A stretch of 64,000 bases of DNA, from positions 1-64,000 of the forward strand of contig NZ_QMIG01000010.1 of the NCBI RefSeq assembly GCF_003287285.1, given 5' to 3'. Source of the stretch: Phytoactinopolyspora halophila (GTDB taxonomy: Bacteria; Actinomycetota; Actinomycetes; Jiangellales; Jiangellaceae). The notes under the pieces were generated by a model, which was not told the origin of the DNA, ran no database searches, and was given only the letters and a program-made list of their open reading frames with translations. Positions 12,778-61,256 of the stretch are shown in pieces. Numbering within the stretch: position 1 is the stretch's first letter; every line of letters begins with the position of its first letter. Position numbers and translations under genes: made by a program.

Positions 12778-13326
12778 GTGAAGGATCCCGGCCGGGGCAT
12801 GGCGCGCGTGGTTCGCGGCTTGATCCTGGCCACGACGTGCCTGGGTATGTCGCTGGCGGCACACGTAGCCGCTGGCGGTGTCGTACACCTTTCCGTAGAT
12901 GTCGTCGCCGGTGGGCTGGCGCTGTCGGCGATGTGCGTGGCTGCCGCAGACACGCGCCGCTCGTTCGGTGGCATTCTCGGTGTCGTCGTGCTCTCACAGC
13001 TCGTCTTGCACCTGTTCGCCGGGGCCGGTGGTCACCATGGTGAGGTGTCTAGCTATGGCTGGACACCGACGATGCTCGCGTCTCACGTGATCGCGGCGGT
13101 CGTGCTGAGCGCGCTGCTCGCGCATGGCGAGCGGCTCGTCTGGGCGTTGTGGGGCCTGACGAGACTGCTGCCCCGCGTTCCACCGGTTCAGGACGTCTCG
13201 CCACCTGCTGGCCCCGCTCCCTCTGTTCTCCAGAGTTACCGGCCGATCTGCCGTAACCTGCGTGATCTCTGTCTGAGTGGACCGGGTACTCGAGCTCCTC
13301 CCGCTGGCCTCCCCAACGTCCGATGA
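12778..13326 (+). CDS. Integral membrane protein, probably copper related, 182 aa
   Basis: Four hydrophobic segments are visible (GLILATTCLGMSLAAHVA; GGLALSAMCVAA; ILGVVVLSQLVLHLFAG; SHVIAAVVLSALLAHGERLVWAL). HLFAGAGGHHGE after the third gives a histidine cluster that could bind metal. The likely start is GTG 12778. It lies 100 bp upstream of a YcnI/DUF1775 gene, and small membrane proteins of this type commonly flank YcnI and CopC genes. The function is inferred from that pairing. Its stop codon lies inside the left arm of the dispersed hairpin element, so the last residues may not be ancestral. Confidence 0.7.
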   Translation: MKDPGRGMARVVRGLILATTCLGMSLAAHVAAGGVVHLSVDVVAGGLALSAMCVAAADTRRSFGGILGVVVLSQLVLHLFAGAGGHHGEVSSYGWTPTMLASHVIAAVVLSALLAHGERLVWALWGLTRLLPRVPPVQDVSPPAGPAPSVLQSYRPICRNLRDLCLSGPGTRAPPAGLPNVR

Positions 13327-13374
13327 TCATGAACTCAAGCCGCTCACATAGAACGGTTTGTGTTCATGATCACG
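13321..13374. repeat. Dispersed hairpin element, copy A
   Basis: Left arm CGATGATCATGAAC, 27-nt centre (13335-13361), right arm GTTCATGATCA. The centre itself pairs (CAAGCCG with CGGTTTG, one G-T wobble), giving one long imperfect stem. It lies between the membrane protein and the YcnI-like gene. Copies B and C share the arms and the 27-nt spacing but not the centre sequence. Confidence 0.85.
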
Positions 13375-25652: not shown

Positions 25653-26235
25653 ACCACGCGCCATGGTGCCGGAACGCCGGGGCCTGACGCCCTCCCAGAC
25701 GGTCGGCCCGTTCCTGCACGTTGGCCTGCCGTGGCCGGACGGTCCGCACGTCGTTCCCGAAGGCACGCCAGGAGCCGTGTGGATCACCGGGACCGTGTAC
25801 GACGGTGACGGAGTGCCGATCCCGGACGCCGTGGTGGAAACCTGGCAAGCCGACCCGGAGGGACGGTTCGACCACCCGGACGATCCGCGCGGTTCGGCTC
25901 GTAGCCAGGTGGAAGGCTTCCGGGGATTCGGGCGATGCCCGACGGATGAGGACGGCCGCTACGCCGTGCACACCGTCCGGCCGGGCTCGCTACCCTGCCC
26001 GGACGGCAGCACCGAGGCGCCACACGTGAACGTGTCCGTGCTCGGACGTGGCTTGCTGGATCGCGTCGTCACCCGGATCTACTTTCCCGGTGATGATGCC
26101 AACCACACCGATCCGGTGCTGTGCGCCGTGCCGGAGGAGCGCCGGCACACCTTGATCGCGGCGCCGGACGGTGACGGCTTCCGGTTCGACATCTGGCTGC
26201 AAGGTGATCGTGAAACGGTGTTCTTCGCGCTATGA
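25645..26235 (+). CDS. pcaG: Protocatechuate 3,4-dioxygenase, alpha subunit, 196 aa
   Basis: Structural alpha subunit of the dioxygenase. It starts with the family motif LTPSQTVGPFLHVGL, then ITGTVYDGDGVPIPDAVVETWQ, and ends with DGFRFDIWLQGDRETVFF. The iron ligands of the beta subunit are not conserved here, as expected (APHVNVSVLGRG replaces the HIHF motif). ATG 25645 lies inside the end of pcaH and its stop overlaps pcaB by 4 nt. Confidence 0.94.
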   Translation: MTEPRAMVPERRGLTPSQTVGPFLHVGLPWPDGPHVVPEGTPGAVWITGTVYDGDGVPIPDAVVETWQADPEGRFDHPDDPRGSARSQVEGFRGFGRCPTDEDGRYAVHTVRPGSLPCPDGSTEAPHVNVSVLGRGLLDRVVTRIYFPGDDANHTDPVLCAVPEERRHTLIAAPDGDGFRFDIWLQGDRETVFFAL

Positions 26236-27611
26236 CCGGCAACGGGATGCTCGAATGGCTCGACGGCGCGCCGTCGGTCGACACCGAGCTCGGGGATGCC
26301 GCACTCGTCCGGGCGATGCTCGACGTCGAGGTCGCACTTGCCCGGGCCGCCTCGGGGGCGGGCCTCGTGTCCCCGGAGGCCGCCGAGGCGGTGGCACGCG
26401 CGGCTGCCGAACTCGACATCGACGCCGGTGATCTGGGCCGCGAGTCCGTGCAGGCCGGTAATCCGGTCGTTCCGCTGGTCCGCGAGCTGGCCGCATCCGT
26501 GCCGCTCGCGGCGCAGCCCGCCGTGCACCCGGGGGCGACGAGCCAGGATGTCCTGGACACCGCGTTGATGCTGCTGGTGCGTCGCGCCCTGATACCGCTG
26601 CGCGCACACCTGGCACGCGCGGGAGATGCGGCCGCCGCGTGGGCGGAGTCTCACCGGGACACTCTCATGCTCGCCCGCACTCTGGGCCAGCCCGCACAAC
26701 CGACGACGTTCGGCCTGCGTGCAGCATGTTGGCTAGCCGGAATCGACGCGGCGTATGCTGGCCTGGAGCGGTTGCACGACGACGTGCTGGCGGTCCAGCT
26801 CGGCGGGGCAGCCGGAACGCTTGCGGGCCAGGCCGGCCGGGGGCTCGACATGATGGATCATGTTGCCAGCGAACTGGGTCTGGCCGCGCCGGCGACGCCC
26901 TGGCATACCGAGCGGTCCCGCATACACGCGCTGGGGACGGCGCTCGCCACGACAGTGACCGCCTGCGGGAAGGTGGCCGCCGACGTCGTCGGGCAGTCAT
27001 CGGGCCCGGGTGCCGAGCTCGCCGAGGGTGGCCGTGGCGGTTCGTCGGCCATGCCGCACAAGCAGAACCCGGTCACGTCGGTGCTCGTGCTGGCGGCCGC
27101 GCGCCGAGCTCCCGGCCTCGTGGCGACGCTTCTCGGCAGCGGGGTCCACGAGCAGGAGCGGGCTACGGGCTCGTGGCATGCGGAATGGCCGGCGTTGCGG
27201 GAGCTGGTCCGGCTCGCTGGGGGAGCGGCCGCCGGTGTCGCGTCGATCCTGGCGGAGTTGTCGGTCGATACGGCTGCCATGCGGCAGCACGTGCGGGCGG
27301 CCGGGCCGGGGGTGATGTCCGAGGCGCTGGCCTCCGTGCTCGTCCCAGTGCTGGGACGCGCGGGTGCGCACGAGGCGGTGCGGGAGGCTCTGGCCGAGGC
27401 GCCGGCGGGTGGCCGGGATCTCGTCGTGGCGCTGCGGCGGGATCCGGCCATAGCGGACGCGCTGAGCGAGGAGGAGCTGGTCGCTCGCCTGGACCCGGCG
27501 AGCTGGCTCGGCTCCGCTGGAGCTCTCGTCGACCGCCATCTCCATCGCCACGCCTCCCATGCCGCTGGCCCCTCCCGCCGCTCCGACCCCTCCGATGATC
27601 ATGAACACTAA
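26232..27611 (+). CDS. pcaB: 3-carboxy-cis,cis-muconate cycloisomerase, 459 aa
   Basis: Fumarase/aspartase-superfamily enzyme forming gamma-carboxymuconolactone. The superfamily signature GGSSAMPHKQNPV carries the catalytic serine loop; other blocks are HPGATSQDVLDTALML and ARTLGQPAQPTTFGLR. The last ~25 residues (AAGPSRRSDPSDDHEH) are odd. They are encoded by the left arm of hairpin element copy B, which supplies the TAA stop at 27609-27611. The ancestral C-terminus was probably different. The gene overlaps pcaG by 4 nt. Confidence 0.93.
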   Translation: MTGNGMLEWLDGAPSVDTELGDAALVRAMLDVEVALARAASGAGLVSPEAAEAVARAAAELDIDAGDLGRESVQAGNPVVPLVRELAASVPLAAQPAVHPGATSQDVLDTALMLLVRRALIPLRAHLARAGDAAAAWAESHRDTLMLARTLGQPAQPTTFGLRAACWLAGIDAAYAGLERLHDDVLAVQLGGAAGTLAGQAGRGLDMMDHVASELGLAAPATPWHTERSRIHALGTALATTVTACGKVAADVVGQSSGPGAELAEGGRGGSSAMPHKQNPVTSVLVLAAARRAPGLVATLLGSGVHEQERATGSWHAEWPALRELVRLAGGAAAGVASILAELSVDTAAMRQHVRAAGPGVMSEALASVLVPVLGRAGAHEAVREALAEAPAGGRDLVVALRRDPAIADALSEEELVARLDPASWLGSAGALVDRHLHRHASHAAGPSRRSDPSDDHEH

Positions 27612-27659
27612 TCGACCTATGAGGACGAGTAGTGTTCATGATCATCGGAGGGGTCGGAG
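27581..27659. repeat. Dispersed hairpin element, copy B, with 30-bp perfect arms
   Basis: Arms 27581-27610 and 27630-27659 are perfect inverted repeats of 30 bp, including the shared core GATGATCATGAAC / GTTCATGATCATC around a 27-nt centre (27607-27633). The element sits at the pcaB-pcaD junction: it contains the pcaB stop and both ATG candidates of pcaD (27601, 27619). The mRNA hairpin would bury the pcaD start. Confidence 0.9.
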
Positions 27660-28434
27660 GGGCGGGCTCGCCTACGACGTGCACGGGCCCGACGATGCGC
27701 CGGTGCTGGTCCTGGGCAGTTCCCTCGGAACGACCCGGCACATGTGGGAGCCCCAGCTGCGCACGTTCTGCGAGTCGTTTCGGGTTGTGCGTTACGACCA
27801 CCTCGGTCACGGTTCGTCGGCCGTTCCGCCCGGGCCGTACACGCTCGACCAGCTCACTGCCGAGCTCGTTGCGCTGCTTGACGAGCTGCAGGTGGACCGG
27901 GCCCACCTCGCGGGCCTGTCACTGGGTGGCATGCTCGCCTTGCACTGCGCCGCCACGCTGCCCGAACGGGTCGAGCGCCTGGCCGTGGTCTGTTCCTCGG
28001 CACACATGCCACCTGCCGACGCGTGGTACGAACGCGCGTCGATGGTCCGTGCCCGTGGAACGGACGCGGCCTTGCCAGCTGCCCGGTCGCGTTGGTTCAC
28101 GCCTGCCTTTTCGTCGACGTCGCAGGCGAACACCCTGTACACGCAGCTGCTGGAGACCCCCGCCGAGGGGTATGCCGGGTGTTGCGCGGCGATAGCGACG
28201 ATGGATCTGCGGCCACTCCTGCCGCGGATCGCGGCACCGACTCTGGTGATCGCGGGAGCCGAGGATCCGGCGACACCGGTCGATCATGCACGCACGATCA
28301 GCGAGGGCATCGCGAACGCGGGCACGCCCGCCCGCCTGGAGGTCGTCGAGGGCGCGGCTCACCTGGCAAGCGTGGAACGTCCCGACCGGGTGGGGCAGCT
28401 GATACTCGATCACCTTCGATCCGAGCCGAACTGA
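27601..28434 (+). CDS. pcaD: 3-oxoadipate enol-lactonase, 277 aa
   Basis: Alpha/beta hydrolase opening 3-oxoadipate enol-lactone. Motifs: LAYDVHGPDDAPVLVLGSSL at the true domain start, RYDHLGHGSS, nucleophile elbow GLSLGGM, acid in AGAEDPATPVDH and a histidine in EGAAHLASVERP. The normal PcaD N-terminus begins about at LAYDVHGP (nt 27667); all in-frame ATG codons lie upstream in the hairpin element (27601 overlapping the pcaB stop, and 27619), adding ~20 basic residues (RPMRTSSVHDHRRGRRGG). The element has replaced the original start. It is followed after 6 nt by pcaC. Confidence 0.9.
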   Translation: MNTNRPMRTSSVHDHRRGRRGGLAYDVHGPDDAPVLVLGSSLGTTRHMWEPQLRTFCESFRVVRYDHLGHGSSAVPPGPYTLDQLTAELVALLDELQVDRAHLAGLSLGGMLALHCAATLPERVERLAVVCSSAHMPPADAWYERASMVRARGTDAALPAARSRWFTPAFSSTSQANTLYTQLLETPAEGYAGCCAAIATMDLRPLLPRIAAPTLVIAGAEDPATPVDHARTISEGIANAGTPARLEVVEGAAHLASVERPDRVGQLILDHLRSEPN

Positions 28435-60258: not shown

Positions 60259-60315
60259 CCGATGATCATGAACAGAAACGGTCCGGTGAGAACCACGAGT
60301 GTTCATGATCATCGG
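60259..60315. repeat. Dispersed hairpin element, copy C
   Basis: Arms CCGATGATCATGAACA (60259-60274) and TGTTCATGATCATCGG (60300-60315) are perfect over 16 bp; the core spacing is again 27 nt (60274-60300), with partial internal pairing (GGT/ACC). It lies between the MFS gene and the VOC operon, in the divergent gap. Confidence 0.88.
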
Positions 60316-60866: not shown

Positions 60867-61256
60867 ATGATGTTCGATACGACGAAAGCATTCAGTGGCT
60901 TTTCCGTAGACGACGTTTACGCGGCAAAGGAGTTCTACGGCCAGACGCTTGGCCTGCCGGTGATCGAGATGGACATGGCCGGATACGTGCTTCTCACGTT
61001 GAAGCTGGGTGAGGGGCGCGAGATCCTGGTCTACCCGAAGCCGGATCACACGCCGGCGACGTTCACCATCCTCAACTTCCCCGTGGACGACATCGACGCG
61101 ACAGTGGACGAGCTGACCCGCCGCGGTGTCGAGTTCCTCCGCTACGACGTCTTCGACCAGGACGATAAGGGTGTCGAACGGTCAGGCGAGGGGCCACTGA
61201 TCGCCTGGTTCGCCGATCCTGCGGGAAATGTGCTCTCGGTTCTTCAGGAGGAGTAG
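60867..61256 (+). CDS. VOC-family protein, 129 aa
   Basis: Glyoxalase-like domain with AFSGFSVDDVYAAKEFYGQT, VLLTLKLGEGREILVYPKPD and FADPAGNVLSVLQEE. Two adjacent ATGs (60867, 60870). Six bases after the first VOC gene. Such proteins are often near ECF41-type sigma genes. Confidence 0.9.
   Translation: MMFDTTKAFSGFSVDDVYAAKEFYGQTLGLPVIEMDMAGYVLLTLKLGEGREILVYPKPDHTPATFTILNFPVDDIDATVDELTRRGVEFLRYDVFDQDDKGVERSGEGPLIAWFADPAGNVLSVLQEE

Follow-up and report, generated by a model that had tools for sequence, protein, structure and literature searches.

Several kinds of short dispersed palindromes have been described. REP/REPIN sequences carry a GTAG/GTGG foot and symmetric conserved ends around a variable middle, and they occur as many intergenic copies with subfamilies per genome (PMC6006769). 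Rickettsia palindromic elements are short dispersed palindromes of several families which are found in frame within protein genes, adding a peptide, while CIR, ERIC and MITE-like repeats are small, non-autonomous and mostly intergenic inverted-repeat DNA (PMC10969869). A literature search for the TGATCA hairpin motif described here found nothing relevant. We analysed a stretch of 64,000 nucleotides of Phytoactinopolyspora halophila (the window), in which a strong hairpin lies at the pcaB–pcaD junction. This hairpin is probably one copy of a dispersed repeat which sits at the stop/start overlap of the two genes, has rewritten both termini, contains a translationally coupled pcaD start and has spread by a route other than a Y1 transposase.

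Based on NCBIfam, the genes around the hairpin (a pcaIJ-like CoA transferase, pcaHG, pcaB, pcaD and pcaC) form a protocatechuate operon, with the pcaB score (350.6) just below the curated cut-off of 355.75 and the CoA transferase subunits far below theirs. The features are listed in Table 1. The perfect 30-bp arms reported at the junction in the preliminary description lie within the inverted repeat and were recovered by the RNA fold, which shows 30 consecutive pairs (27581–27610 with 27630–27659), a minimum free energy of -94 kcal/mol and z = -12.6 against shuffles. The outer arms of the pca copy (22 nt) are the longest among the 91 copies measured. The element supplies the end of PcaB, whose last codons in the left arm read DDHEH* as had been claimed. 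The claimed onset of PcaD homology at 27667 also agrees with our analysis, in which TIGR02427, the PcaD profile, matches from residue 23 of the frame opened at 27601 (LAYDV). There are four in-frame pcaD ATGs (27559, 27595, 27601 and 27619) and an in-frame GTG at 27679. The view that all usable ATGs lie in the element holds for 27601 and 27619, as well as 27595, but not for 27559, which is outside the arms and within pcaB. The element very probably supplies the start of PcaD, and the start codon is most likely inside the hairpin, at ATG 27619 or 27601.

Table 1. Coordinates of the pca junction, its hairpin and other copies of the element (window positions unless a contig is given)
Feature	Coordinates	Strand	Remarks
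Whole inverted repeat	27574..27666	.	45-nt arms 27574-27618 / 27622-27666, 93% complementary
Left 30-bp perfect arm	27581..27610	+	translated as pcaB end
Right 30-bp perfect arm	27630..27659	+	open in pcaD frame
49-nt core of dispersed element	27596..27644	.	TGATCATGAAC...GTTCATGATCA
pcaB	26232..27611	+	last codons GAT GAT CAT GAA CAC and stop TAA (27609-27611) within element
pcaD frame	27601..28434	+	conserved protein from 27667
Candidate pcaD start ATG in hairpin loop	27619..27621	+	7 nt past pcaB stop
Second window copy	13324..13372	.	first TGA is the stop of the upstream gene
Third window copy	60263..60311	.	between divergent genes
82-nt class, window genome (G000)	C12:51644-51725, C12:167328-167409, C77:120751-120832		
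82-nt class, G010	C10:35713-35794, 61056-61137		

The palindrome GATCATGAAC-N-GTTCATGATC is found in 133 copies in the 5.04-Mb genome, whereas the reversed control pattern is not found at all, and thus the palindrome is not due to chance. With exact arms (GATCATGAAC...GTTCATGATC) it is present in 35–109 copies in each of four genomes of the genus g5. The broader pattern TGATCA-N37/38-TGATCA occurs 159 times in this genome and 20–195 times in most genomes of the bacterial family, again with no hits for the reversed control. Low counts are seen in G005 (2) and in the incomplete G003 (9) and G002 (0). G005 belongs to the same genus as G008, which has 79 pairs, a useful contrast for finding the spreading gene. 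Outside the family the counts are mostly 0–5; they reach 11–23 in G026, G048, G050 and G109, where not all pairs are hairpins. G050, of another actinobacterial family, contains repeated TGATCATGCAATCCCGCCACCC...TGATCA stretches which are mostly non-palindromic inside.

The unit is about 57 nt long. Four paired outer bases are followed by TGATCA, by 5 nt that differ between subfamilies and by a middle part that is variable and partly palindromic; the TGATCA-bounded core measures 49 or 50 nt. TGATCA pairs spaced by 43 nt number 33 and those spaced by 44 nt number 18, where 0.34 would be expected for each spacing. Outer pairing is about 80% over the four bases and then about 45–50% up to about 12 nt. 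Pairing across the variable columns, scored in 40 copies of this genome, was seen in 550 of 800 cases, compared with 477±11 when the arms are shuffled, an excess which kinship of the copies can inflate. The subfamilies are TGATCATGAAC, -TCAAC, -TCGGC, -CCGACC and -GGTGAC, plus an 82-nt form of near-perfect palindromes (TGATCATGTTTGGTACG...CATGATCA), which likewise lie at gene ends and mostly have AA/TT flanks. The interiors are genome-specific, the nearest neighbour of a copy being in the same genome at 0.95 (0.61 when shuffled). Concerning coding capacity, two frames of the element are closed, one immediately by TGA and the other after a few codons by TAA or TAG (GAT CAT GAA CAC TAA), and the third is open (ATC ATG AAC ...). 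G007 (L122 873–1445) has inverted CGATCAGATGC repeats, nested and separated by about 500 nt, which are unlike the main element.

The copies are strongly placed directly past stop codons. By a custom codon-usage gene caller, on which all stop-placement counts rest, 73 of the 87 intergenic copies lie within 35 nt of a stop, compared with 15.7±3.6 by chance. Among tandem copies the number is 45 of 50, compared with 30.3±2.6 for random placement inside their own gaps, a test to which the short convergent gaps contribute no information. Some genes end inside the element, its first TGA serving as the stop of 25 genes and the TAA at position +16 as that of 13. The trend recurs in another genus, where a different subfamily dominates (21/29). 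The hairpins could therefore be bidirectional 3'-end structures, either transcription terminators or protectors of mRNA 3' ends, with the pca copy as an operon terminator or attenuator. Copies are enriched in convergent gaps (28/87, 10.9 expected) and depleted in divergent ones (9, 29.5 expected), and of the 26 in long tandem gaps, 25 lie closer to the 3' end of the upstream gene, just as intrinsic terminators form hairpins 3' of stop codons. Unlike intrinsic terminators, however, the TGATCA hairpins have no T-run, a terminator scan gave no match at the pca copy, and the mismatches of tandem copies (54 G-U vs 64 A-C) show no sense-strand G-U excess; moreover, copies within open genes and in the pca operon would truncate the transcripts in which they lie. 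The missing T-run and G-U excess speak against selection for an RNA terminator, with which the 3'-end placement would nevertheless agree, and we regard this explanation as rather doubtful. The copies are probably kept at the 3' ends of genes as palindromes at the DNA level. In Rfam the strong hairpin gave only sub-threshold miRNA-shape matches and none at gathering score.

Comparison with relatives bears on how the junction arose. In G012 there is no hairpin: pcaB ends in ...VDRHLRSHDRKERR*, the two genes share an ATGA overlap and PcaD begins with MTHRLGYDVHGP. G007 likewise has no hairpin, with a GTGA overlap. Overlap-coupled pcaB–pcaD thus appears to be the usual state and the termini in the window appear to be made by the element, which would have come to occupy the 4-nt stop/start overlap. 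In G010 the same junction carries a degenerate TGATCGTCAAC...GTTGATGATCA TGATCA hairpin of 50 nt, of another subfamily, with ATGA in the loop, and different subfamilies therefore seem to have taken up this site in two genera. The earlier proposal that an insertion changed two proteins is upheld in that both termini differ from those of the element-free G012 and would have been rewritten by the element; because of the G010 hairpin, a single clean insertion is not proven, and the empty state of G012 might be a loss. Switches of this type are also seen at C77:96160 and C12:484705. At the end of a purine nucleoside phosphorylase-like gene a copy is present in G000, G004 and G007, and none was found there in G010, G012 and G014.

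At the junction pcaB would have come to read into a closed frame of the element, now ending DDHEH*, and pcaD through its open frame, gaining an element-encoded N-terminal tail. The left arm belongs to the coding sequence of pcaB and would be opened by ribosomes completing that gene, so that the stem could not form ahead of them. After the TAA at 27609 they could re-initiate at the loop ATG, or at 27601 by overlap, and coupling would be kept despite the loss of the old ATGA. Because translation of pcaB covers the left arm and terminates 7 nt ahead of the loop ATG, coupled re-initiation is plausible, at least as much so as the lowered PcaD supply suggested in the preliminary description; either effect on PcaD is predicted from the DNA. 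A mainly repressive role of the hairpin, through masking of the pcaD start codon, would fit the position of the nearby ATGs, which, all but one, sit in the -94 kcal/mol structure. This is nevertheless unlikely, since translation of the left arm up to that stop would keep the hairpin open; once the left arm is removed the long stem is gone, and 27612–27700 folds at -31.7 kcal/mol.

Two further codons in the pcaD frame, GTG 27679 and ATG 27559 (the latter within pcaB), would place the start outside the element, which is quite improbable: a start at the GTG would drop LAYD, which has a counterpart in the relatives and in the profile, and the closest GGAGG lies about 18 nt from this codon, while the ATG has no visible ribosome-binding site upstream.

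The pcaD frame is the same open frame that is used by copies inside genes. In G010 (C10:21727) a copy adds 18 residues (the MIMNSNRAHSTESVHDH region), which are absent in the otherwise closely aligned G012 ortholog. A MenE-like ligase, so called on the basis of its sequence without a profile (loci include L135 and L129), contains an in-frame copy at the same protein loop in G000 (C12:181787-181835), G010 and G012, and no copy in G007, G004 and G014. In this gene the third positions of conserved codons agree in 53–61% of cases outside the element and in 14/16, 7/9 and 8/10 inside it, small numbers in which re-copying would look like selection. A CydD-like gene of this genome contains another internal copy. 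The G008 genes with internal copies look in frame; they are not counted as proof, as they are judged from the sequence of G008 alone.

The copies have probably been re-copied or re-inserted over evolution by a non-Y1 route. The proteins of G010 and G012 are 81% identical at the median and several copies are shared at orthologous sites, which shows that much of the family is old and not freshly mobile. An ordinary RAYT/REPIN system, with which the conserved symmetric ends, variable middle, high copy number and subfamilies per genome would agree, is extremely unlikely, as the Y1 transposase (PF01797) was found in none of the 22 family genomes, with five control genomes positive, and the hairpin foot, CC(G/C)(A/C)-TGATCA, lacks the GTAG/GTGG tetranucleotide. 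Reverse transcriptase was considered as mobiliser and rejected, being present in only 3 of the 22 genomes and not tracking copy number. The genes between close copy pairs look ordinary by eye in the stretches of the window genome that were read. Phages, plasmids and IMG/VR viral contigs gave no match for the main subfamily. No target-site duplication was seen at the aligned empty sites, where the flanks have diverged.

The novelty lies in the TGATCA family and not in the single pca junction. High-GC actinobacteria provide a second, unrelated setting for palindromes entering proteins in frame, known chiefly from Rickettsia. As many species differ in their filled sites, movement and survival of the repeats are open to direct comparison. 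Such repeats recur at gene ends and sometimes in frame within genes, and gene starts or ends called beside TGATCA hairpins may be element-encoded. We tentatively suggest, as one possibility, an actinobacterial class of TGATCA hairpins, similar to REPINs and Rickettsia palindromic elements, long kept at stop codons and in frame, which would be copied or rewritten by an enzyme other than a Y1 transposase or a reverse transcriptase.

Compared with known systems, the family resembles CIR, ERIC and MITE-like repeats in being small, mostly intergenic inverted repeats, but no parent transposon was found in the stretches read, nor a target duplication at the empty sites with their diverged flanks. Its nearest kinds are REPINs and Rickettsia palindromic elements. 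With REP/REPIN–RAYT systems it shares a large number of dispersed palindromes, mostly between genes, whose ends are conserved; it differs from them in its outer end, TGATCA, in the foot and in lacking the Y1 transposase, and is thus not a standard system of this kind. With Rickettsia palindromic elements, to which it is likened by description and not by sequence, it shares in-frame insertion via an open frame, as in the G010 gene and in the MenE-like gene of three genomes. It differs from them in its length (about 57 nt instead of about 150), in its actinobacterial hosts and in its distribution, most TGATCA copies being at stop codons and few in genes.
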